Source: Galerina marginata
Taxonomy: Eukaryota > Basidiomycota > Agaricomycetes > Agaricales > Galerinaceae
Direction: 5' to 3'
Assembly: GCA_023014335.1 (NCBI GenBank)
Contig: JAECYW010000036.1
Location: 124,001 to 188,000 of the forward strand
Length of the DNA stretch: 64,000 nucleotides
Shown piece after piece: positions 19,743 through 62,384 of this stretch. The notes beneath the pieces were generated by a model. It was given only the letters and a program-made list of their open reading frames with translations. It searched no databases and was not told the DNA's origin. How positions within the stretch are numbered: position 1 is the first letter of the stretch; each line of letters starts with the position of its first letter. Position numbers and translations under genes: made by a program.

Positions 19743-20224
19743 GTGGTTGAATAATTACTCCCACCCTTGATATATTGAGACCTTGAATTAGGTTGTACAG
19801 AGATTACCTTATTTGCTATTTTTATTGTATTTTGGTTGTTGATCTACCAATTTCATGATATTTACTGACAGTTAGTTAACCGTAAAAGGGTTTTGAAGCA
19901 TGAGCTAATAGCGCTTGAATAAAGGGTCATCGATCAACTTGAACATTGTTAACCGTGATTCCATGCAGTGTTAGACTGTTAGTACATAGTGTACGGAAGG
20001 CAGAAGGAAATTGGTACTTTAATGGACTTGGCGTCTACCGTCTACCCAAGTAGTCGACGTTTCTTTGTAAACCTACACCAACAAAGATTGCCCCAGTTTA
20101 TCTGAGTCGTGGGCCTAGGTCGGATAACCTGTTGGCGCCGTTGCTTTGATCAACAATATGCGGTGGAAACGGTGGGTGGAGGTACTCGGTACACGCCTTT
20201 GGGAATGTTCTAACATCCAAATTT

Positions 20225-20365
20225 TGTCTTTACCAGCAATCTTCTACCACTGGCACGGCACAATGATTGATCTAAAAATAGATTTCGATTCCTTTGTTCG
20301 AGTCGATTGTATCTATCTCGAACTTAACCTCCACGCCTGGTATTCACCTTCATCCCGATCTAAAT
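20225..20365 (+). repeat. Copy of a dispersed repeat shared with 27490-27612
   Basis: This ~125-bp stretch, just upstream of an F-box gene, matches the reverse complement of 27490-27612 at high identity. It contains a GGCACGGCACAATNATTGATC block and TTTGTTCGAGTCGATTGTAT. It lies inside an open frame that continues into the F-box gene, but no ATG-based reason requires it to be translated. It is probably a transposed or duplicated non-coding segment in the promoter/5' leader. Confidence 0.7.
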
Positions 20366-20451
20366 ATCGTGCTCTTCGTCTTCGCCTGCATATTCAAACA
20401 TTTCAATCGGGAAAGCATTCCGCTCATCGGAAAAATCCACACCTCCTCCTG

Positions 20452-21842
20452 ATGGCCAACTCCCCACCGATCCACAGGCTGCATTCCGATATCCTTTGGC
20501 GCTTTTTCTCACTCAACGCTGACATGGAGCTTGGATTTGAAGATTATGAACCAGCGATTGATACCCTCCGCACCATTTCCCAAGTCTGTCCTCTTTGGAG
20601 GGACGTCGCGATGAATTCGCCCTCGCTCTGGGGAAGAGTAGTCAACATCGACGTCGTGTTCAAAAGGAGGGCCGGGTCCATAACGAAGTGGGGAAATGAA
20701 GTTTTGAGAAGGTCCGGGGATTCAGGCCTCCATATAAAAGCCAGACTTGACACGGAGTCAAAGAAGATGTCGTGGAGTCGCTGTTACGCCAGAACTGGCA
20801 CAGGATACGAAGTCTTGACCTGGAGTTCCAAAAGAGACCGATCAGTGGCGAAAGGTGGCAAGGGATATTCGGAGTCCCAGCGGTAGCGCTGGAAAGCTTT
20901 CGAATTCATTGTAACGGGTACGAAAAAGAATCAAAATTTGTTCTTTTCCAGAATAATGCACCTTTCTTGCGCCGGGTTTCGACAACCAACTTCATGGTGG
21001 ACTTGAAAAAGCTCCTATGGGTGTCTAATCTTCGCTATATCAAAACGAGCTCACCTATCCCCACCGTCGAACTGCTCAGCTCACTCTTCCTCGCCCCATT
21101 CCCATTCCTCGAATGTATTGAGTGTGACGACTTCGGAGCTCGCCCCAAGGACGCGGACGAGGCAGTCCGACCAGTACTACGCCCAATCTCTTTGCCCTGC
21201 CTACGGAGAATCGAACTTGTGGTTATATACCAAGTCAATAACACTCTGACCATGCTGACGCATATTACCCCAAACGAACAATGCGCCTTCGATTTGGCCG
21301 TCGACAGGGATTTCGTGGACAACTATACCTTCGATCTTCTTCGTGAGGTGCTCCCTAAATACCTGCGGTATGCAGCACGAATGTCGCCAGCAACGGATCT
21401 GCGTCTAGTATTGAAACGAGATTGGTTTATATTCCTCCAATCCTCCGGGGGGTCTTTCTCGTTCCATGTACAGCTGCCAGTTGGCTTACATGAACTGGCC
21501 ATATCCGTATTCCCGTTCTGTTTCGCACACACCACATTTCGGCTCGACAGCATTGAGAAGTTGGTATTCAGAGTCGTCGAAGACGAAGACGTGGACCTTC
21601 TACTAGCCAATGAATCAATGGAGAAACTGGTTCTCCGCCTCCTCTCTGTCAAGTCACTTGAGACCGACTCCGAAACCCTCGTCTATCTCAATAGGTTCCA
21701 GATAGAAACCCGCATAGCCCCGTTCCCTTCCTTGAAGATTGTTAAATCACCACTCAGGGACGACGACGAAATAATTCAAGACTTTCTGGTTTCAAGAGCA
21801 GCGGCCGGGGTGATTGGTACGATTTCTTTCACTGGCTGGTGA
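20452..21842 (+). CDS. F-box protein with a one-base frame break
   Basis: The ATG at 20452 begins MANSPPIHRLHSDILWRFF, the same F-box-like domain as the 60089 and 47875 genes (SQVCPLWRDVAMNSPSLWG, EVLRRSGDSGLHIKA). Family alignment is good to about 20765. There the frame must shift by one base to continue as ESLLRQNWHRIRSLDLEF and onward to the stop at 21840-21842, giving about 460 residues in total with an LRR-like C-terminal half. No intron with acceptable GT-AG ends and conserved flanks fixes this, so either the gene is a young pseudogene or the assembly has a one-base error in the AAAG/AAG run near 20760. If intact, it would be an SCF substrate receptor. Confidence 0.7.
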
Positions 21843-29812: not shown

Positions 29813-32656
29813 TGCTGGGGTCTCATTTTATTCCAAAATATATCCCCCCGTCATTTGATGACGGAAGAGTGGTAGATTTTCGGAGAAGATATTGATCGGG
29901 CATTCTTAATTAATAATGACGACCTTACTACTGACTAATTACAACCAAGTCGAGTTCGTAACAAAGAAGTACAGAGCTAGACTGTAGAGAACTAATGAAT
30001 TGACTGGGAGAGGGTTCAGCAAATATAAACTAAAGGCCGGTTCGTGATCAAAGAACTCAAGCAAAGGATAAAATCAAAAAATTACCTCTCAAGACCATCC
30101 GCTACGGTGGGAGGCACCGTGGTCCGTCGTCATCGCATTCATACTCAAGTATATGCGTCCCAGCCGAACGCCATCCACTCTTCGTCCTCGATCATGACCA
30201 GCTCGCGAACCCACCTGCTGCGGCGCTGCCTGCAGCAGCGCGCCAGCAACATCAGCTGCCTTTCCCCCAAACACCCATCCCGCGAAACGTGGTGAACACT
30301 TTCCCTTCGCGACTCCTGCACCAGCCCATGCCCATGCCCATCTACCGGTTTACTTTGCCTTTGGGAGCGAAGAAACCCGTACATCAGCAGCAGCGGCGCA
30401 GCGCGCCGGGGTGAGGAAGGACTAAACACGAGCGGGCTGAGAGGAAAGACGGAAGTACGGAAGGAAGGTGGGGTAGCAGCGGGAGGGCTGCGACGATGGA
30501 GCACGGGAAAATGCAGATGGGGAGGCAACGATGACGATACGGAAATCCTACACCCTCCTCAAGGGTCAAGAGGGTAGAGGGTTGACGTAGTGAAATGGTA
30601 GAGATTGGTGGCGACGATCAATCGCGAACATATGGTGCACGCTAGGAGGACTTTGCATGCGTATTGGCGACGACAGCGTCGTTCCGTCTTCCTCGTCCTC
30701 CTTCCCGATTTGGCCTCTGACAGCACCAGCTGCCCACTCCGCCCGACCCCACATTATCGCACCTCTCTTCCGTCCCACTGCCCCCTCAGAGTCATGCACC
30801 CGCCATCGCGACAAAGAGAAAGAGTTTTCCTAGGGGCCATTCCTGCATTAGTGACGATGGTGCGGGCTTTGGAGCGTGCTGTATGGTTTGGTTTTGGTTT
30901 TTGTGGTAAGATGGGCAGATGGGCAGAAGCGGGAATGCCTGAGCTTGAAGGAGGGGGCTGGGTGCGGCTGCGATGAGGGCTGCAGCAGTTGGGGTAGTCG
31001 CTGCATTGAGACCGAATAGAATGAGGTCCTTGCTTCTCCTTTCGACCGCAGGATCCTGCCCTCGGCTCTATCTCCTCTGTACCAGTTGAACGTTTCGGGC
31101 TCAGGCCACGGAGGTGCCGCTCACATTTCAAACTCCCGCCTCACTCCCTTCCCCTTCCTCCTGCGTACGTGTATGCGTCCTCCCAATCATGACCGGCTTG
31201 CAAACTCGCCCGCCTGCCGGCACCAGCAACGCTCTAGCAACATCAGCACTAAGCTACGCGCCCCACCTCTTCGCCTCTCCCCAGCCTCGCCCTGCGGGGC
31301 AGTACCCATCCCACGAACTTGACGAAAAGTCTCCCGTGGGGACACCTCCAGCGGGCAAAGTCAATGCATATACCCCAGGACTAGCAGCGTCCACGACCCG
31401 TGCGAGCGTTCTTTGCTTCTGGGAGTGAAAAAACCGCGGAGCCGCAGGTGGTCATGCACCTGGGTGGGAAGTTGGAACGACCAGACCGCAAGCAGGCCAG
31501 AGGGAAGGACAGTGTAGCAGCGGGAGGGCTGCGACGACGAGCGGACGAAGATACAAGGATACAAGGATTCACCCTGCCCCGAGCAGAGGCGATTGGCAAA
31601 AGGGCAAGGGATAGGTGATAGCGATGACCAAGTTGCGGACAGGCGGTGCGAGTCCCTGCTTGAGGTACGGAGCCAAGCGACGAATCGACGTGGCAGTTGA
31701 GTATCATGGTGATGGTGACAGTTTTCTGGGGGGCTCGGAAGAAGGGGTCAAAAGAGAAGGAGATCTTGGAATGAGTAACGCCAACAGCGAGCTAAGAACA
31801 AAGAATTTCGTTCAGCTTCGACTCCACAAGGAGGTAAAGACGAGGAAGCACGCACCTAGTCGCTTGGTTTCACCGCGAGATACGTTGTAACCGCAGAACC
31901 AAAAGAAAAGGCGGGCTGTTAAGAATGTCAAGCTTCAAGGAGCCATTCTTCTTGAAATCGATTAACAAAAGCTCGAATCCAACATAACGTCCTTCCTCAC
32001 CGGATATCTAGAACTCCCAACGCCATCCAGGAGATCGTGAAAGAAGTCGGTAAAAAGAGAAACAGTATGCACAACTTGAAAGCGCCGGCGTCGTACGAGT
32101 GGCTGGATCTTCAAGCCGTCCAAGATGCCTAAGGATATAGGCCACAGCTGAAGTGCAGTCAGTAACCCGTAAGTAAAGGACCGAGAGATGATTGTGCGAG
32201 GACTCAGGAGATGGAAGAGCGCGAAATGATGAAAATTTGATCCCAACACGTACCACGTGAGTCACAGGTGGTTGGGAACGAGCAAGACGAACAGAACACG
32301 TTGAATACTCGACTACAACTACAGCTGACTTGTCACTTTCCTGAATCCTACATACAATTACAACGATGAAACGAACGGGCAACGAACGGGAGTCGGGAAT
32401 TTCTTTTTACTATGTAGTGATTTGCTTTCGGAAGAATTTCTGGGCTGGTGCGAAAAAAAAATTTGAGATAGCCGAAGCGAGATTGTGGAAAAGAAACTTG
32501 AACTATAAACAGTATCAGACATTCTCTAAACAGAACTACGGGTCTTGAGTGCAACTTGAGTGGAGACCGCGACTGAGATTGGAATTAGGAAAGTTATGGG
32601 TGTTGTTTATTGAAATTTGAAAGACGACTTACCTGGAAAACCACGGTCGTGGAATG
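29813..32656. other. GC-rich repeat-bearing interval without clear gene
   Basis: Overlapping frames on both strands come from biased composition. Two related segments (about 30140-30560 and 31060-31620) share blocks such as CCAGCAACATCAGC / CTAGCAACATCAGC, TTGGGAGCGAAGAAACC / CTGGGAGTGAAAAAACC, and GTAGCAGCGGGAGGGCTGCGACGA. This indicates local duplication. The second is the start of a longer dispersed repeat (31390-32270). No gene supported. Confidence 0.45.
31390..32270. repeat. Dispersed ~0.9-kb repeat, copy 1 (copy 2 at 45950-46860)
   Basis: Long collinear match to 45950-46860 with many shared blocks: GCAGCGGGAGG.CTGCGACGA, GGCAAGGGATAGG / GAGCAAGGGATAGG, GCGATGACCAA.TTGCGGACA, CGACGTGGCAGT.GAGTATC, GCAGAACCAAAAGAAAAGG, GGATCTTCAAGCCGTC, ATATAGGCCACAGCTGAA, AGATGATTGTGCG, and ATGAAAATTTGATCCCAACACGTA at the end, followed by CACGTGA in both. 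No transposase, terminal repeats or target duplication could be identified, and both copies carry indels that break any common reading frame. Confidence 0.8.
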
Positions 32657-35600
32657 TTAGCGAATGAATCTCGTTTGGACGGAAGTGCCTTTGGGGGGAT
32701 GTAGGAAGGTGTAGTCACTTGATATCCGTTTCCATTGTCCGCCTTTGGAGCCTAGCAAGATGGCGAGGTCCCCTTGACCGTCTACCTTGCCAAGAAAAGC
32801 AAGCTCGAGGAAGTCATAATCTTGGCGGGTTTGGAGCGTCAGAGTGATATTCAACGGTTTAGCCAAAGTAATTTCTTGTTCACTATTTTTCATGTGCCAC
32901 TTGCCGGCTGGAATTCTGTAAACCCATAATGGAATACGCAAGCCAAAGTTAGTCAACGCGTAAGACGGGTCAACAATGTCCGTCGATGTCGAGGAGGATA
33001 GTGGCCTGATTGTGAGAGAGGAGGGTTCAGACGAAAAGTTGTCTGGCTTGGCTGCAAGCATGCTGTTGCTGACCGATGACTGTCCCTGCCAGACGAATAG
33101 TCCTATGTCTGCGGTACGTTGGAAAATCTCTACCTGCAATCGATAAAATGCCATCTCCCCTTCACCATAAGCGATGGTAAGTGGAACACCCAATAAACCA
33201 ATGAGAGAATAGGCCATGTCTTCAATCCGGGTTGTCTTCCGCTTTGATAACCACGCAAGAGCATCTCTAGCATGGTCAATCCCAGAATTAAATGTGGTGA
33301 AGTGGTCTGGTGAAATCCCTGTTATATCCGAGACGTGATTCCAGAGATGTTGCTTTAATGCAGAATTAACGATTTTGTCGTTATCATCATCGTTGAAAGA
33401 AGAGGTTGTTATGAGTCTCCATGATTTCCCGAAGAACCTCAGGCTTTTTGGTGCCAAGAGTTCTTGTAAAGTCCAGCCTCGTGTAAACCACTGATCTTTA
33501 CGAAAGCTTGGAACGTCGGTGGTATCGGCAAGGTGCACAATGCAAACCTTGGATTTGGAGTACCAATTGAACATGGATCGAATTGATTCCTCAAGCTCAG
33601 CACTACTGCTTTTGTTAATGCAACCAGAGTCAAACCAAACAAAGCGGCAGGAGCGTTGAGAAGAGATCCAACAAAAGATGATAATCTTTATGAAGCTCGG
33701 AAAGTGGGTTCCTTTTTGATCGGCTGGAAACAGCGCTTGGTATGCCTTCTTTATAGGGTCGTCCAACTGGTCAGTTTGACTTAGTGTGGATTGCACTGTT
33801 CATAACAACAATAATCACCTCAATTGCAATATTTGCACCTTGACTTGGAGAGTCAAATTTGATCAACTCGTGCAGTATGTCTTGATAATCTGCAAATTTT
33901 AATATATCAGTAAATGCCAACTCGCCACCAGGAAGCCATCGATGGGAAAGGATTGAATATGATGTCTCCTGAGTTATCCAGTTTGTGGCAATAGAGTGAA
34001 TGTCTTTCTCAAACACATTTTTGGCACAATGTTCCAGAAATATTGTCGTCTTGTCCAATAAAATAGTCGCAAGAGCACCTCTATGGACAAGTTGCATTTG
34101 TTCAAGATCTAGAAGGAAAATTGGAAGATGATTATGAATGTATGCGCTAATGACGCCATTGATCACTGGAGTAAAAAATATGAGTGACGGAGAGGACACC
34201 ATCTAGCAAATATAGCAAAATTACAGGGGGGGTATGTGTTCTTTAACATGTACGTTGGCAAGAAACAACAAAAAGGAATGGAGTAAAAGATGCACCTTCT
34301 GTAAAATAAAGTAAGCAAAAGATAAATAGCAGGTAATACTGGACAGCAGTACACTTACTCGCTATTGAGATTAAAAAAGGATGGTGAGAGTGAGTGACAG
34401 AAAGCAGAAGAAAAGCAACAGATTCATGTACCAACTGAGAATTTTCATATTTAAGTCAACTCCTTGGAATATTCAATGGATTCACGTACTTCCTGAGAAC
34501 ACAAACCCGTCGCATTTTTGTAAGTAAATTCCTCGGAATATTCAATGGATTCACGTACTTCCTGAGGACAGAAACCCGTCGCATTTTTGTAAGTCAATTC
34601 CTCGGAATATTCAATGGATTCACGTACTCTCTGAGGACGGAAACCCGTCGCATTTTTGTGAGTCAATCCATCGGAATATTCAATGGATTAACGTACTCTC
34701 TGAGGACAGAAACCCGTCGCATTTTTGTAAGTCAATTCCTCAGAATATTCAATGGATTCACATACAGTCTGAGGACAGAAACCCGTCGCATTTTTGTAAG
34801 TCAATTCCTCGGAATATTCAATGGATTCACGTACCGCCTGAGGACACAAACCCGTCGCATTTCTGTAAGTCAATTCCTCGGAATATTCAATGGATTCACG
34901 TACCCCCTGAGGACACAAACCCGTCGCATTTTTGTAAGTCAATTCCTCGGAATATTCAATGGATTCACGTACTTCCTGAGGACAGAAACCCGTCGCATTT
35001 CTGTAAGTCAATCCATCGGAATATTCAATGGATTCACGTACGAACTGAGGACAGAAACCCGTCGCATTTTTGTAAGTCAATTCCTCGGAATATTCAATGG
35101 ATTCACGTACGAGCTGAGGACACAAACCCGTCGCATTTCTGTAAGTCAATTCCTTGGAATATTCAATTAATTCACGTACTCTCTGAGGACACAAACCCAT
35201 CGTATTTTTGTGAGTCAATTCCCCAAAATATTGACTGAATTCACGTACATACTGAGGACACAAACCCGTCGCATTTGTGTAAGTCAATTCTTCAGAATAT
35301 TCAATAGATTCACGTACTCTCTGAGGACAGAAACCCGTCGCATTTTTGTAAGTCAATTTCTCGGAATATTCAATTGATTCACGTACTTCCTGAGGACACA
35401 AACCCATCACATTTGTGTAAGTCAATTCCTCAGAATATTCAATGGATTTATGTACTTCCTAAGGACACACCGTGTTTTCGTTAGAGATTTCACCAACGTA
35501 GCACCCTCACTTACTCTCTGATGACACAACTAAGGGGAGTTTTAATGCCACATTTTTGCCAATATCTGATTGACTCAACGTACGTCCTGAGTTTCCGAAA

Positions 35601-36241
35601 AAAACAACTTCATTAGTTAAACGCCTGCAGTATTCAAGCTACTGTCGCACCAGCTGTGCAGGTATCAACTCCAGTTAGTCGCTTGACACCCAATGGCTAT
35701 ACCGGTTAAGACGCCTCACCGTCTAATGACCGAACAACATTCCATAAAAGTTAGCCGACTTCTAATATATTTGAGGTATCTGAGTCGTGACACACGTTCT
35801 TCAGATGAAATATGAGTCAGAAAGTGCTTTCCGAGCAAGAGGTCTATTCACATACTCCCTAAATGTGATTTACCATCGCCGCAGCGTTGGAAATCATAAT
35901 CTCTGTATTCCATAATTCCACCCACCTCCTGATGCCCAAACTGAGAGGTAAATGTGGGTTTAAACTTTCATTTCGAGAGATAATACTTGCCCACTGATAA
36001 GTCGAGCCAGCATCATAGAGAAAGAGACACAATCAGCATTGTAATAACCACTGCTCAGCATCGGAGAAATCTGCTTGCATCCTAAAGGACACGAGGAGCG
36101 GCAAGGTTACGAACTTGACGTCGTTGACGAATGACATAACTTACAAACTATAAAAATAATGGTATTGCTTCACATTGAGAGGTTTTCTCCCAAATAAACG
36201 GATACCTTGCTCACATGATGAGTCACAGCTTTGTTGGCCAT
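32657..36241 (-). CDS. HET-domain protein with 28 single-codon exons
   Basis: The C-terminal exons (33839-34202 and 32657-33795) encode a HET domain: YSILSHRWLPGGEL, CRFVWFDSGCINKSSSAELE, FRKDQWFTRGWTLQELLAP and MAYSLIGLLGVPLTIAYGEG. HET proteins mediate allorecognition cell death in fungi. Upstream, the start exon 36206-36241 (MANKAVTHHVSK) is followed by 28 exons of exactly 3 nt. They begin at 36145, 36079, 35991, 35926, 35856, 35796, 35720, 35651, 35584 and 35515, then at 35456 and every 69 nt down to 34490, then at 34432, 34359 and 34296. Each has AG before it and GT (GC after 36079 and 35991) behind it, with introns of 55-93 nt. All are phase 0. They read FDWEGNTLDREERYR then LFEGATRREELRK, running straight into MVSSPSLIFF of the next exon. 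The total is 540 residues with no stop. A start at ATG 34202 is the conservative alternative (500 residues). Confidence 0.85.
34435..35514 (-). repeat. Tandem array of near-identical 66-nt introns (69-bp period, 15 units)
   Basis: Fifteen units of 69 bp run from ~34455 to ~35470. On the minus strand each is GTACGTGAATCC...CTGTCCTCAG (66 nt), then one variable triplet. The intron part differs at only a few sites per copy. The triplet takes eight values across the array (GAA, AGA, TAT, CTC, TTC, GGG, GCG, ACT), with all three bases changing. The 5' GTACGT, a TTGACTTAC-like branch region and a pyrimidine-rich CTGTCCTCAG fit fungal splice signals. The outermost copies are the most diverged. As a minisatellite it would be odd for the only free triplet to sit exactly between AG and GT. 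Confidence 0.9.
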
Positions 36242-38035
36242 CTATTCTGGATGTTTAGTAATGATCAATTTCGTCGGTGACTCGATTCAAGCGTTTACCC
36301 TCTAGAGTTTCTGGTTCTAAAATAGTGTTGAGATATATCGTGATCTAAGAAGCACATCCTGACGCACCGCTAACAGCTTGGTTATGTATTCGTCCTTGGG
36401 AGGGTGGAAGCGGAAAGAGGGGAGAAAACGAGTCATCATGCGGTCAATCGTCTACTTAAGCATCAGCCTCTGCGCGATAATCAAATCGATGTCCTGATTC
36501 CTCCACCAGGCTGACAAGTACGGCGCTGGCTGTCACTTGTTGGGATAATTTTAGGGAGCTATTATTATCAAGAGAGTTCAACGCCGGCATGGAAATCAGA
36601 GCGGCCAAAATAAAACAGTTGCCAAGATGGGTTAAGCAGAAGACATAGTTCTCAAAGTAGGAGATCGTTTGGTGGAGGAGCCGCGCATACACTTAGAGGG
36701 CAAAGAGCGAGTCACCTTTGTGCTGCTTACGCGCTCGAAGGATCGTCTAACTGGCCAAATTGGACCCAGATGTACTCGATATAACTGGAAGACTCGGAAT
36801 TGATCATCTTCTTGAACGTACCAATCGGAGTAATGTACAGAGCACCTGACAAGATGTTAACGGGCGGCGGACGTGAACCTCCAGGCAGCTTCACCATCAC
36901 ACCGGGCCTTCATGGAAGAATTGCTGTGCCCATCGCCGCGCCATCACCATCGAATCAGACAAATCACTTCATTTGACTTTCTTCGCCGAAATGAAGGACG
37001 TGAGCCCGCAGAGTAATATTATTATAGTTCTTCGTGATATCACCGAAAATCTTACGATAGATTGGAGTTGTGCTCTCCTCCACCAAATGGAGCGGAGGCT
37101 GTGATTGCAATTGCGACTTGACACGGGCATCCAGTTTACGCCCGCTTTCTGAAGTGTCGATTCGGTGTCGAAAGCGCGTTCCCTGCCCATCCCGCTTGTG
37201 CCCCCGCCTAAGTCAACGTTAGCGGGTGACTGAAGCGTAATTTCGAAGTCGACGACCTTCTTACCTCTTTGAAATTCTCTTTCCGTCCTACCCGCTCTAG
37301 GTTTAGGAGCGCAAGGTGCGAAGAATAAAAAATGGCTTCTGCTATGAAAGGCAGGATGGGGCCCAAGACGGACTGGCAGGGCTGTGCGTAGGCCCTAGGT
37401 ACTTAAGGAACAGAATACGTGGGTTTATGCAGAAAGACAGAAGTGAGTTGTACGTACCTTGGGGTATCAAGGATTTGATAGGGCGTTGATGTTGAACCCG
37501 ACGCCGACGGGCTGGGCACGAGTAACAACGACGAGGTGGGTGGGACGGGCAAGAAGGTGACAGCAGTGATGTCCACTCTTCAACGCTGTGGTCTTTATCG
37601 GACGCCATTGGCCTGGCGGCACGGAATTGTGGCGTCAGATGGCGCAGCTGCGTGATAGACGGTCAAAATCATCGAGTCCTGCTGCTTTCATTAGTATCAA
37701 GTTACGCACTACGCACCTCCCTGTTCTTCGCGTCCGTAGCACATCCCAGCTCCACACACGGCCTGCCATCACACACTCCCTCTCCACCCTCCTTACTCGC
37801 CTAGTCCCGTGCCCGCACATAGGCCGGGCAACTCGCATGTCAGGAAGGAGAACCTTCATCGAGTGTGAAGTTGCAGGTGCAGTCAATCGTATCGTAACCT
37901 CTAGTTATCGGGTAAGGTCGGTTGACATCCAGTATGGTCTACACAGGCTGGTCGGCGTCGAGGTAAACAAGGAGGCTGGCTTAAGGTGATTGCGATTTTT
38001 GTTGAGATTATCGTCTAAAGAGAAGGCCACTAAGG
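36242..38035. other. Interval upstream of the HET gene
   Basis: No gene assigned. A minus-strand stretch about 36745-36900 encodes MVKLPGGSRPPPVNILSG and YITPIGTFKKMINSESSS without stops, followed by a possible 40-nt intron (GTAAGC...CTAAG). The frame 36456-36692 (78 codons) has a hydrophobic segment. These may be parts of a multi-exon minus-strand gene, but I could not find its start or identify a family. Confidence 0.3.
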
Positions 38036-55539: not shown

Positions 55540-57910
55540 ATGCGCCTGAACCAGCGACACCCCTCACGCCCCAGTACCCCAAAACACTCAATAGGTCGAT
55601 TCGCGCCGCCGCCGCTGCCTCACGAACCGACACCGACTCCGCACCCCGCTCGGCCGCCTCCTCCTACCCCACCCTCCCGTATCCGAAACTGCCCTCTAAT
55701 CGGAGGCGTGGTGGTACTGATCGTGCTGGCGAGTCGAGGGTGTGAGTTTTTGGTTTCGGGTGTTGGGTTCACGACGGGATGAGATGGCCATGGGGCTGGG
55801 AAGGGAAGGATGGGACAGGGCGGGGCGGGGCGGGGCGGGGCGGGGCGGGGCGGGGCGGGGCGGGGCGGTGTTCTGCTAGCAGGCGCAGGCCCCGTCGTAT
55901 CGAGGTTTACGTTTAGGAACGACTTGAAGTCCATTTGAAGTTTGGTGGGAAGGCGGCGTCCTATGTACAGTTCTGAGAGAGGAAAGGACGAGCCGACGAG
56001 CAGTGGGGTTACGGCGTGCAGGCTGGCAAGCAGGCTGCACCGAGAAGAGGAGAAAACTGACTTGAAGACGACCAGTATGAGCCTGTGTGTGGGGTGGAAA
56101 ACACTGACGGGTGCAGAAGGAAACGTCCTATGAGCCAAGAAGAGGCGTGTTCGCATTCGTCGTCTCGTCATCTATGACGTTCTCTCGAGGCGAGCACTGC
56201 CCAGAACCCTTCTCGCATGAGCTCACTTTGTCACCCGCTCCACTAGCCAGAAGCGAGGACAAGGTCCAAGCACCGCGTTTCGTACATCCGCCGCCCATCG
56301 TCATCCCATCCCATCCCATCCCATCCCCCCCTACCCAACCTCATCGTCGTCAGCATACTCATCCTCAGCACCTCCAATTCTTGAATGTGTGCGCTAAGGC
56401 TAGGAAGCACGGGGCGCGGCGACGTTCAACATTCAGAGTCGACAGGCGAATCGACAGGCGAAAGGCGAAGAAGAAGAGGAACCAAAAAAAACTCGGTCGG
56501 CGGCCATCGAATCGATATCGTTCCTCGTAGGTACATCCTCATCGAGAAGATGAACGTGCAGCGCGGTCGCCGGGTAATGACAACGAACTCATCCACCACC
56601 CACCCACCCAGCCAACGCACCCATCGCGTAGAGTATACGTAGAACCGCTCGTCCGAAGGGCCAGTTCTTCTCCTGCTGCTGGTCTTCCTCCTCACGTGGG
56701 CGACGCCAGATCTAGAGCAGCGCCTCACCGGCACCCCTCGCGCACCAGCACCTCAAACACCCATCTGCACCGCTGCGCCCGAAGCCCCGCCTCACGATCC
56801 CCCTCCTCCTCCTCCTCCTCCTCCTCCCGCTCCTACACCGGCCGATCCCGTATCTGAAACTGTCCTCTAATCGACGACGCGGGGCCGGACTTCGTGCTCG
56901 TCCTGATACCGATGTGAACGCCAACGTTAAGACTGGTGCTGCCCATGTCGATATCGATATCGGTGTCGGGTGTATGTGTGTGGGGATGCGGTAGGGGTAC
57001 CCAATGGCAACGCGCAGTCGGCGGTGCATGGTTGGGAGGTGTAGGTACTGGGTATGATACTCCACGTTGCCAATCGAATGCGGGGCGGGACGGGGCACTG
57101 GCAGGACGGGATGTTGAAGGCTGAAGGTCGAAGATTGAGGTTGAAGCACCTCCTCGCGCCGTGGTATACTGGATACACGATACAGAGTAGAGCATCCCAT
57201 CCCATCCGCGCTTTTGCCGCTGTTGCTGAGGCGCCGCTTCACGAGTCACGAATCGACTCCCCCCCCTCCCCATCCTCTCTCTAAAACTAGGTCAAACGTC
57301 GTCCGAGACGAGCCAGCTACGCTGACAGCAGCACCACGCCACGCCCGACCTATCAGAGGGAACCGAGGGGAGCGGGGAAGGGCGGTATGGTAAGCGCAAG
57401 GGCAAGGGCAAGCGCGGGGCAGGGCCCGGCCAGCCAGTCAGGCATGTACATGAACACGTAGGCTTACGGCCAGGTTGGGTGAGGGCTCGAGTAAACGTAG
57501 GTGTCGAACGGGGCGTGGGGCGTCGTGGTACTGGTCGTGCTGGCGCGTTGAGGGTGTGGGTTTTTGGTTTCGGGTGTTGGGTTCACAACGGGATGAAATG
57601 GGGCTGGGGCTGGGAAGGAAAGGGACGGCAGGATGGGGCAGGGCGGGGTGGGGACTGTGCGAGCGGGCCTGATCGAGTAGAGGTCTAGGAACGGCCTGAA
57701 GTTCGTTTGAAGTTCGTCTGGAGGGAGGGCGTCGTCCTATGCACAGTCTATGAGAGGAAAGGACGAGCCCGGATGGCTTCAGAAGGAAACGTCCACGTCC
57801 TATGAGCCAAGGAGAGGCCTGTTCGCATTCGTCATCTCGTCTTGTCCGTGACGCGTGAGGCCTTGAGGTCTTCTCTAGGCCAGCACTGCCCCACACGATC
57901 GTCGAGGGCG
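55540..57910. repeat. Segmental duplication (55540-56215 and 57470-57910)
   Basis: GGTACTG.TCGTGCTGGCG, GGGTGTG.GTTTTTGGTTTCGGGTGTTGGGTTCAC, GAGAGGAAAGGACGAGCC, AGAAGGAAACGTCC, CCTATGAGCCAAG.AGAGGC and TGTTCGCATTCGTC occur in the same order in both segments, about 1.8 kb apart. A third partial match (CCCGTATCTGAAACTGTCCTCTAATCG) is at ~56848. The copies differ in length because of indels and simple-repeat expansion. Confidence 0.8.
55819..55868 (+). repeat. (GGGGC)n microsatellite
   Basis: About nine to ten GGGGC units in a row inside the first copy of the segmental duplication. The second copy has only short GGGGC pieces, so the run expanded after duplication. The G-runs could form a G-quadruplex. 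Confidence 0.9.
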
Positions 57911-60088: not shown

Positions 60089-61636
60089 TTACCGAAGAAT
60101 TATTCTAAGCCCACTGAATTTTTCCAGGGATCGTAGATCCGTTTCGACATCAGGATCCATCGGAATGGAAAGATTATTGACCAGCCTGCCCGTTGAAATT
60201 CGTGATGTGAGAAATTGTTCAACAGTTGATAATGTTTCTGGTGGTAAGCACGAAGTGAATTCAACTGTATGGAGGACTGGAAAGGAAAGGGCCTGGACGT
60301 CACTGGGGAGATTGAGCAGAAATCCCAAGGTTTCAGGATTAGTGTACAAAGTTTCGACGGAGGGAAGCGATAAAAAGAACTGGGCAATTCTATGATTGGA
60401 AGGATCGAAAGCCAACGGTGAGATTCCAAGCGCGAGGGTTTCAACGTCTTGAAATTTAACCAAAGGCAAAGCGGTAAAAAGAGCCTCGATTATACCATGT
60501 GCCAGTGGGGAAGGGATTTTGAAATGAAATGGAGCTTCGTGAGGGATTATCGCCTCGAAATTGAAGCGGTATTGATACAAATCGAGGGAAATATAAATCG
60601 CGCTGGCGAGATCAGCACACCTGGAGAAGTTATACAAAACTCGACTGGCCAAGGTCAACGTATCTGTAGGGGGAACGGTGCCGCTATGACTGAAATTCAA
60701 GTAGCATCCGGCAGGTGGTTGTATTTGAGCGAGGAAATCCATGTAAGGGCCCATATCTGTATATGAGAAGAGTGTGATTTCTTGCATTGAAGGAGCTGTA
60801 ATTTGTGGGAGCGAAGAGAACACATTTTCAGTGCAGGTGATGGCATTGTAAGTCTCGTCTACCAAGCATTCAAGAAGCGGCATGCGAGGGATTGCTTGAG
60901 CTACTTCGTAAGCTGATACCTGGGCGCTCAAGGCAAGGTATCGAAGGTTTGCTAACCAAGGAGCATCCAGGTTGAACTTGATGTTGGGAGCGTAGAATAC
61001 GCGCAATGCAGGAGCGAAGTTATTGAAGACAACGAAATCGGAGGGAGAAAGAATGGGTGTGCTTTCATGATCCACACGTTCAAAGACGACCCGAAAGATC
61101 TCAAGGACCTCTGATGGACGCCGAAAAATCTCCCAGAACTGCGCGATGTTGAAGTCGTCCATCCAATAAGAGCTCATGAAATTGAGTTCCAGCCATCGAA
61201 TTCTACCCCAATGGCGTCTGAGAAGATCTGCAGCAATGTCCTCGGAGAGACATGCTTCTCTTGGATGACCCCACAACACGGACAGCAATGACCCACCCGT
61301 CCGCCGTAGAACTTCTTTCCTCCAGTCATCGTCCTCAAGATGGGAAAGATTGACAACCTGACCCCAGAGTGATGAAAACGAAAGGATGATTCGTCGCCAC
61401 CTTGAACAGACTTGCGAGCTATGTCTGAGGGTGTCAATTGCTGCTATTTCATCTTCGTCCAGTGCTTCGTCCTCCATATCTGCATTTAACCAGAAGATCC
61501 ACCATAGTAAATCGTCGTGGAGCTTGAAAATCGGCGGCTTCGCGCTGGAGATGTTGTCGAGATTCTGCTGAGAAAAAGAGCGATGAGGACTCCGAGACGG
61601 TAAGCATAGAAGCTCCGTAACTTTTAGTTCCTCCAT
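60089..61636 (-). CDS. F-box protein, complete
   Basis: A single exon of 515 residues from ATG 61634-61636 to the stop at 60089. The F-box-like block at residues ~35-95 has FKLHDDLLWWIFWLNADME, LRHSSQVCSRWRRIILSFSSLWG and WRKEVLRRTGGSLLSVLWG. It is followed by leucine-rich repeats of LRR-like character (LASRVLYNFSRCADL, VETLALGISPLAFD, FPVLHTVEFTSCLPP). It is the closest intact relative of the frame-broken gene at 20452 and also related to 47875 and 1-377. The probable role is an SCF substrate receptor. No introns, as in the 47875 paralogue. Confidence 0.9.
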   Translation of the reverse strand: MEELKVTELLCLPSRSPHRSFSQQNLDNISSAKPPIFKLHDDLLWWIFWLNADMEDEALDEDEIAAIDTLRHSSQVCSRWRRIILSFSSLWGQVVNLSHLEDDDWRKEVLRRTGGSLLSVLWGHPREACLSEDIAADLLRRHWGRIRWLELNFMSSYWMDDFNIAQFWEIFRRPSEVLEIFRVVFERVDHESTPILSPSDFVVFNNFAPALRVFYAPNIKFNLDAPWLANLRYLALSAQVSAYEVAQAIPRMPLLECLVDETYNAITCTENVFSSLPQITAPSMQEITLFSYTDMGPYMDFLAQIQPPAGCYLNFSHSGTVPPTDTLTLASRVLYNFSRCADLASAIYISLDLYQYRFNFEAIIPHEAPFHFKIPSPLAHGIIEALFTALPLVKFQDVETLALGISPLAFDPSNHRIAQFFLSLPSVETLYTNPETLGFLLNLPSDVQALSFPVLHTVEFTSCLPPETLSTVEQFLTSRISTGRLVNNLSIPMDPDVETDLRSLEKFSGLRIILR

Positions 61637-62384
61637 GAACTATACGATCGCGAACAGTTCGTCTATAAAGGCGGGATCGCGGTAAAGAATGAACCAAGAA
61701 TTTTAGAAGTCGTCAAATTTTCAAAACTCAACTTGAACAAACCTCGGCACATCCGGCATCCCTTTTTAGTACCTACACGCATCAGACACCACGACTTGTA
61801 GGAACGCTCATATCCACTGTGGGCGCTACTAGGAACAAGAATGAATCGTACTTACCATTGACAGGGAGGATACTATCCACCCGTACCCTGGTATCTTTTT
61901 TTGTCTAATCTGCAATCAAGGTCCAGGTGTCATCGTATTGTCATGATTTGAGTTCCGAGTTGATTCAACGGCGTCACGATTTCACGAGGAATAACTCATG
62001 AGCTAAAGAATGGCAACTAACACCGAAATCGTTGAGAAGTGAATACCAACCGTACGCCGTGCAAAGCGACCTGGATTGCTTGCGGGCACCGCTGTTAGAA
62101 TTATTGCACAAGATATCGCTTGCAGGCAATCACGGCGGTTCCATTCCTTTCCAGTTCCTTTTTTAATTTCCCTTGAATCGTAACACAATCCATTTTAAAT
62201 CTACTTTTCGCCACTGAGAGCGGCTTTGTGTGCCGCTCATAAACCTCGATACATGACATCATCAGGTATATACTTCAATTGGTAGGTAAGGAATTCAGTC
62301 AAAGGCTAGGAACGTATGGTAAATCAAATACGACAACAAAAGAGAAATTCTTTTTTGTTGTCAAAGAATACGACTACAAAATTC
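61637..62384. other. Intergenic interval
   Basis: About 750 bp between two minus-strand genes. Contains the F-box gene promoter and the RING gene 3' region. No other feature seen. Confidence 0.5.

Follow-up and report, generated by a model that had tools for sequence, protein, structure and literature searches.

The closest described counterparts of the gene analyzed here are the NACHT-ANK ("nank") genes of the truffle Tuber melanosporum, for which excerpts of four papers report tens or dozens of mini-exons of 3 bp (PMC4986451, PMC3689799, PMC9815663, PMC10197012). We analyzed 64,000 nucleotides of Galerina marginata DNA (hereafter the window; bases 124001-188000 of contig C30, in a genome of 69.3 Mb in 43 contigs), in which a gene with a HET domain is preceded, on the minus strand, by 28 triplets resembling consecutive one-codon exons. 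As in the truffle genes, codon-sized exons would follow one another here by the dozen (24-30 per gene copy, by sequence only) in a fungal family linked to recognition, and in both cases, as far as the truffle excerpts go, the paralogues are expanded and rapidly evolving. The primary paper on the truffle mini-exons is reportedly that of Iotti et al. 2012 (Fungal Biol 116:261), as quoted by papers that cite it. However, the truffle host gene is an NLR (NACHT plus ankyrin) of an ascomycete, whereas this one is a HET-domain gene of an agaric in which Pfam finds neither NACHT nor ankyrin; in addition, the truffle mini-exons are reported, in the same excerpts, to diversify a C-terminal sensor through alternative splicing, while the run here is N-terminal. 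By its predicted domains, the gene is thus not a member of the truffle family, and the likeness is one of anatomy. The initial annotation of this DNA, which knew of no run of such length, is overtaken by the truffle case; among the literature matches listed (titles and abstract openings), there was none on arrays of one-codon exons in basidiomycetes or in any HET gene.

A second comparison concerns the WD40, ANK and TPR repeats of fungal NLRs (HET-D, HET-E and HET-R), described in the available parts of two papers as near-identical units with few hypervariable codons under diversifying selection and as linked to incompatibility (PMC4986451, PMC12222747). The array in the window resembles them in its near-identical tandem units with hypervariable codons (0.101 versus 0.638 differences per site, constant part versus codon) and in its changes of repeat number. 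In HET-D, HET-E and HET-R, though, the constant part of the repeat is protein, whereas here it resembles an intron, and of each unit the variable codon alone would end up in the protein. By Pfam, the predicted protein has no NACHT or NB-ARC nucleotide-binding domain, which places it outside the definition of a fungal NLR (STAND).

According to part of PMC10526429, schistosome micro-exon genes (MEGs) encode secreted proteins and have many short exons of 3-81 bp, with introns of up to 5 kb; they differ from the present locus in their mixed exon sizes and long introns, and that part of the paper mentions no uniform one-codon array. Aphid bicycle genes, as described in an excerpt of PMC9168663, evolve fast and have many small internal exons, with >100 microexons in one related large gene; these internal exons are almost all phase 2, with no one-codon tandem units mentioned in the excerpt, whereas the predicted exons here are phase 0. 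For plants, source excerpts report verified 1-nt microexons. Recursive splicing is known to leave no exon, or a skipped one, at its ratchet points, unlike the case here, in which each step would leave one codon. Both recursive splicing and the stwintrons remove adjoining introns successively, according to excerpts of two papers (PMC6224609, PMC8469720).

A chain of one-codon triplets in seven gene copies

In our assessment, the HET gene rather probably has an N-terminal peptide that is built from 28 one-codon exons and diversified one residue at a time; most of these exons belong to a 69-bp minisatellite. We infer that the triplets are spliced into the mRNA. All 28 triplets described in the initial annotation were found on the minus strand, each with AG on its 5' side and GT (26) or GC (2; GAT 36081 and TGG 35993) on its 3' side. 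The distance of 55-93 nt previously given between them resolves into a triplet-to-triplet spacing of 55-85 nt and a last step of 93 nt to the HET exon. Joined in order, the triplets read FDWEGNTLDREERYRLFEGATRREELRK, a stop-free phase-0 frame, as had been proposed. The chain consists of the following parts (numbers after codons are first bases).

35515..36147, minus strand: ten predicted one-codon exons 5' of the repeat, present in seven copies (TTT 36147, GAT 36081, TGG 35993, GAG 35928, GGA 35858, AAC 35798, ACG 35722, CTG 35653, GAC 35586, AGA 35517)
34490..35458, minus strand: predicted one-codon exons of the array, first eight of fifteen (GAA 35458, GAA 35389, AGA 35320, TAT 35251, AGA 35182, CTC 35113, TTC 35044, GAA 34975)
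34490..35458, minus strand: predicted one-codon exons of the array, last seven of fifteen (GGG 34906, GCG 34837, ACT 34768, AGA 34699, AGA 34630, GAA 34561, GAA 34492)
34296..34434, minus strand: three predicted one-codon exons 3' of the array (TTG 34434, CGA 34361, AAG 34298)
34452..35469, no strand assigned: 69-bp minisatellite, 14.8 copies (Tandem Repeats Finder)

The pattern extends beyond the repeat, as the initial annotation had noticed: 15 of 27 introns lie in the 69-bp array and are similar to the unit consensus (z 8.9-18.8), while the 12 outside it are unrelated or weakly similar (z 0-3.6).

Chains were searched by dynamic programming, taking the longest series of AG/NNN/GT sites (a slash marks a predicted exon border) 45-100 nt apart, with stop triplets disallowed. 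The longest chain was 28 triplets at this gene, 4 on the window plus strand and 2 on the minus strand once the gene had been masked; first-order Markov simulations yielded 2-4 in 100 sequences of 64 kb and ≤4 in 1000 sequences of the 2-kb stretch. Across 260 kb of DNA including the window, corresponding to eight strands, the longest chain was 26-31 on the four strands with gene copies and 2-4 on the other four. No chain was seen on reading the stretch upstream of two other HET genes of the same genome (45 and 47% identity), which were drawn from 23 further HET match rows, some of them sharing one gene. The curated chains exclude AG/NNN/GT sites starting 4 nt after the chosen triplet start, together with one further site in copy F.

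The HET gene with its chain is present in seven genomic copies: A (the window), B (C30), and C, D, E, F and G (C43). A DNA search of the same genome with about eight array units gave at least 20 matches, a lower bound for the repeats, all in these seven copies. Copy E (C43) is near-identical to copy A, as either an allele or a duplicate of it, leaving six distinct copies once E is set aside. E was left out of diversity counts, E and F were left out of the ratio of nonsynonymous to synonymous substitution (dN/dS), and unit statistics exclude units that are not 69 nt long or that have <45/66 consensus matches. The chains comprise 28 triplets in A, 28 in E, 30 in B, 24 in C, 28 in D, 25 in F and 28 in G, with no in-frame stop among the total of 191. 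The three exons 3' of the array are all present in five of the six distinct copies, the first two being deleted in C. The copies vary in their number of units, and for most of them the array peptides could not be aligned, although A and C share the first five.

Intron-like signals and hypervariable triplets

The stretches between triplets fit the features of U2-type introns, i.e., a GT or GC donor, a CTNAY branch motif, an AG acceptor and a short, fungal length. In 82 array units, the donor GTACGT, a CTNAC branch motif and the acceptor CAG were near-invariant, with the N being that motif's one clearly variable position. In copy A, CTNAY was present in range in 22 of 27 introns and in a relaxed form in 2, with none in the remaining 3. 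The donor of exon 2 is GCAAG in five distinct copies and GTAAGC in D only; that of exon 3 is GCAAGT in five and GTAAGT in G only; and conversely, that of exon 11 is GT in five and GCAAGT in F only. Thus, GC donors are always GCAAG, and GC and GT interchange exactly at predicted exon borders. This donor switch is, at the level of sequence, the strongest sign that the stretches between the triplets are introns. RNA folding of the consensus unit gave no structure beyond that of shuffled sequences (z 0.49), and scanning the window for tRNA genes and Rfam families (gathering threshold) gave no matches. The interpretation put forward in the initial annotation holds in part: comparison of the seven copies shows triplets that behave like coding exons and intervening stretches that behave like spliceosomal introns, while its claims on origin and novelty are not supported.

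We then compared variability within the array. Units differed from one another by 0.638 per site at the triplet, versus 0.101 over the 66-nt stretch (68 units, six copies); the array triplets are close to saturation, and the 66-nt stretch is 90% alike between units. The triplet consists of the three most variable of the 69 unit columns (82 units, seven copies), and no other 3-nt window of the unit varies as much (68 units, six copies). Among unit pairs with an identical downstream 66-nt stretch, the triplet differed in 13 of 16, and when pairs were formed by the upstream stretch instead, it differed in 11 of 16. With ≤4 differences over both flanking introns, the triplet differed in 27 of 35 pairs, and overall, triplets were almost uncorrelated with the similarity of the adjoining intron. 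Orthologous units of A and C are alike in both introns and triplet; elsewhere, array peptides differ despite alike HET exons. Of the ten exons 5' of the array, numbers 1, 3, 4 and 7 (F, W, E and T) are invariant in all six distinct copies, and the remaining six vary.

Stop codons were absent from the array and the three 3' exons in six copies (0 of 103 triplets), even though 61 of these 103 are one substitution away from a stop. When only triplets distinct within a copy were counted, 0 of 58 were stops (P ~0.004 from base composition, a rough value because units are not independent). The joined triplets read two bases on contain 2-5 stops in every copy. By eye only, avoidance of NAG or GTN triplets is suggestive. 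Separately, the 66-nt introns are a multiple of 3 with an in-frame stop in only 5 of 82 units, such that a retained unit would add 22 residues and keep the frame.

The first exon, the HET exons and the locus

The chain is flanked by four further predicted features.

36215..36241, minus strand: predicted first coding exon with donor GTGAGC, reading MANKAVTHH in the window copy
33819..34202, minus strand: first large exon of the HET gene, with CTAG/ATG, which keeps the frame, as candidate acceptor
33767..33818, minus strand: predicted 52-nt intron (GTGATT...CCAG) in the HET coding region, removal of which joins two HET frames
32657..33766, minus strand: second large exon of the HET gene, with the HET domain PF06985 (Pfam)

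The first exon had been placed at 36206-36241, and an end at 36215 is more likely: the GTATCC donor at 36206 is missing in F and reads GTATTC in C, while GTGAGC or GTAAGC serves as the donor in all six distinct copies. The first intron is 67 nt long in the five copies for which it was computed (A, B, C, D and G). First-exon lengths are all multiples of 3 (27 nt in A, 12 in B, 15 in C, 12 in D, 15 in F and 96 in G), and its ATG is retained in A, B, C, D and F, with G having an ATG of its own. The 96-nt first exon of G (C43:293k) is enlarged, in frame, by repeats with GAGGTATCC, giving an acidic N-terminus.

The PF06985 match scored 37.9 bits with exon 2 (query 32660-33757) and 37.3 bits with the predicted protein, against a cut-off of 22.5; HET was the only domain of that protein to pass the Pfam cut-off, with no NACHT, NB-ARC or ankyrin, and neither NACHT nor ankyrin was found in four open reading frames (ORFs) tested downstream of the HET gene. 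The closest named proteins to the HET exon, among metagenome entries, are from Psilocybe cyanescens, Galerina marginata and Flammula alnicola. Each of the six distinct copies has the 52-nt stretch at this same length, not divisible by 3, so the frame would be broken unless it is spliced. Predicted proteins P0001-P0005 carry a stretch matching 33767-33818 as coding, and in this gene it looks intronized. In HET exon 2, all ten pairwise comparisons among A, B, C, D and G gave a dN/dS of 0.16-0.32 (first 200 codons), and this exon is under purifying selection; the values for HET exon 1 (0.41-2.48) come with very low dS and are not informative. The HET parts compared look intact in A, B, C, E and G. 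In D (C43:165k) and F (C43:264k), the chain is retained despite a broken HET exon 2, and both are without the ATG at the HET exon.

Copies A and E were compared as blocks (window 32500-37000 versus C43:187.4-198.3 kb). Over window 32.5-37.0 kb (~4.5 kb) they differ at only 5 sites, 3 of which fall within 6 nt, at one triplet plus donor: ACT/GTATGT in A and ATA/GTACGT in E. This near-identical block suggests, from the comparison of the two sequences, recent gene conversion or cassette exchange. In 500-bp bins upstream (37.0-38.0 kb), divergence between A and E is ~9 and 18%; in bins downstream (27.5-32.5 kb), it is ~0.2-9% per 500 bp with a gradual change, the nearest bin being at 2.4%.

Competing readings and a proposed mechanism

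Several observations weigh against one-codon exons as the source of the N-terminal peptide. In exons 1-10, the triplets show 0.167 differences per site versus 0.128 in introns 1-9, i.e., they are not more conserved than the introns, so conservation alone would not prove coding there. To this are added the three copy A introns in which the scan found no branch motif, the last gap of the chain in C (26 nt, likely too short for splicing), the HET frame broken in two of the seven (HET exon 2 carries a stop in F and a premature one in D) and the non-independence of units that makes the stop-codon P values rough. Where both flanking introns are near-identical (≤2 differences in 132 nt), the triplet is retained in 5 of 6 pairs; near-identical flanks thus mostly keep the triplet, meaning that change is fast rather than instantaneous, with orthologous units holding their codon for a while. 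When the joined triplets are read one base on, five of the seven copies are free of stops while E and G have a single stop each, and since this control is also nearly stop-free, the absence of stops is weaker evidence than it appears; it slightly lowered our confidence in translated one-codon exons and slightly raised that in an untranslated chain. Finally, the first 50 predicted residues of A and B had no homologue among ~5.8 billion proteins in a search that needs shared 5-residue words. The initial annotation had named such an outcome as refuting, although it is also expected of a hypervariable peptide that cannot be annotated.

The uncertain junction of the chain to the HET exon counts on the same side. 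The twelve residues after CTAG/ATG (MVSSPSLIFFTP) resemble a pyrimidine tract and are not shared by the relatives compared, and copy F is without the AG of CTAG/ATG. The pyrimidine-like stretch ends in CCAG/TG, where the relatives' shared sequence starts (exon from 34165), and this acceptor breaks the frame set by the triplets. A phase-1 frame, in which the G of the last triplet joins the TG of CCAG/TGATC, was rejected, as it starts with a stop in every copy and contains 2-5 stops; the remaining frame, nearly without stops (none in five copies, one in E and one in G), is unfit for both the first-exon phase and the CTAG/ATG phase. A 43-nt exon from TCCAG to AAG, in frame with CCAG/TG, has no stop in A, B, D and G, is interrupted by one in F and is deleted in C; it skips the CGA/GTAAGT exon and reads as a pyrimidine tract, and we do not prefer it. 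The ATG at 34202 is retained in A, B, C, E and G, which have intact HET frames, and lost in D (AAG) and F, which have broken ones; as it tracks intact frames, it cannot by itself rule out that translation starts there.

A start at that ATG is central to the alternative that we take most seriously, though we judge it rather unlikely: the triplets would be untranslated, and the array part of a long 5' leader or intron removed either stepwise, by recursive splicing, or whole. The five copies with intact-looking HET frames all have ATG 34202, the relatives' gene models compared begin in or after this HET exon or carry unshared sequence before it, the predicted peptide (A and B searched) is without homologue, and the one-base-off reading is almost as free of stops. 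Yet we know of no property of noncoding leaders that would account for a triplet six times as variable as the intron, for the lack of stops among the 58 distinct triplets and for an upstream ATG exon with indels that are all multiples of 3. Intron gain faces other difficulties. The initial annotation had every codon boundary receive an intron, and an introner-like burst of this kind, in which a 28-codon stretch was invaded at each boundary and the array introns are copies of one mobile intron, seems to us quite improbable. Whereas the near-zero correlation of triplets with the similarity of the adjoining intron is what introns moving into an older coding sequence would be expected to give, the units are tandem, exactly 3 nt apart and of varying number, the A/C orthologous units match in introns and triplet while other array peptides differ next to alike HET exons, and no relative with an uninterrupted peptide was found with the A and B residues searched.

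An ordinary coding minisatellite without splicing, encoding a 23-residue repeat (xVRESIEYSEELTYKNATGLCPQ) with one hypervariable residue, was rejected as very improbable. It has in its favor that 69 is a multiple of 3, that a window minus-strand frame is open for 256 codons and that only 5 of 82 units have an in-frame stop. However, the array does not behave like a repeat translated into protein structure: in every one of the seven copies a stop, or units with a length of 67, 68 or another number of nucleotides, breaks the frame, variability is without codon periodicity (0.116, 0.082 and 0.102 at positions 1-3), and both the 13 one-codon exons outside the array and the GC/GT switches would be left unexplained.

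Returning to one-codon exons, the units appear to have multiplied as codon plus intron by tandem duplication, a unit whose number differs between copies; an intron gained at every codon boundary fits less well. Since adjacent introns are separated by only 3 nt, we infer that the spliceosome is unable to hold both at once. Under intron definition, the introns would instead be excised in succession, and the upstream exon would grow by one codon every time, in a process like recursive splicing with one codon left at each ratchet point. As every unit is in phase 0 and contributes exactly one codon, a change in unit number or skipping would keep the HET frame: unequal crossing-over may add or remove one residue, and exon skipping may lose one. 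Near-identical introns would favor unequal exchange and conversion, with selection keeping the codons different. By analogy with the hypervariable repeats of fungal incompatibility receptors, the product would likely serve a HET cell-death protein as a variable peptide for recognition or specificity. More tentatively, as a possibility rather than an expectation, the locus may be a codon-by-codon diversity machine, independent of the truffle NLR case, in which unequal exchange rewrites the recognition peptide and alternative skipping of any of the 28 frame-neutral exons gives a large family of peptides from one gene. Were this so, it would parallel, at the level of RNA splicing, the repeat codes that have one variable position.

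If the triplets are spliced, neighboring introns only 3 nt apart test exon and intron definition at the limit. The array triplet, which changes far faster than the adjoining intron, would offer a natural gauge of how selection acts on individual residues of a gene that likely serves nonself recognition. As a case separate from the truffle, in another gene family and likely another phylum, it would make codon-sized exons a recurrent route of fungal diversification, and exons of this size can be missed by gene models.

Elsewhere in the window, ORFs at 60092-61639 (minus strand) and 20128-20883 (plus strand) gave weak F-box-like matches below the Pfam cut-off, and a perfect GGGCG pentanucleotide repeat of 10.2 copies occupies 55818-55868.

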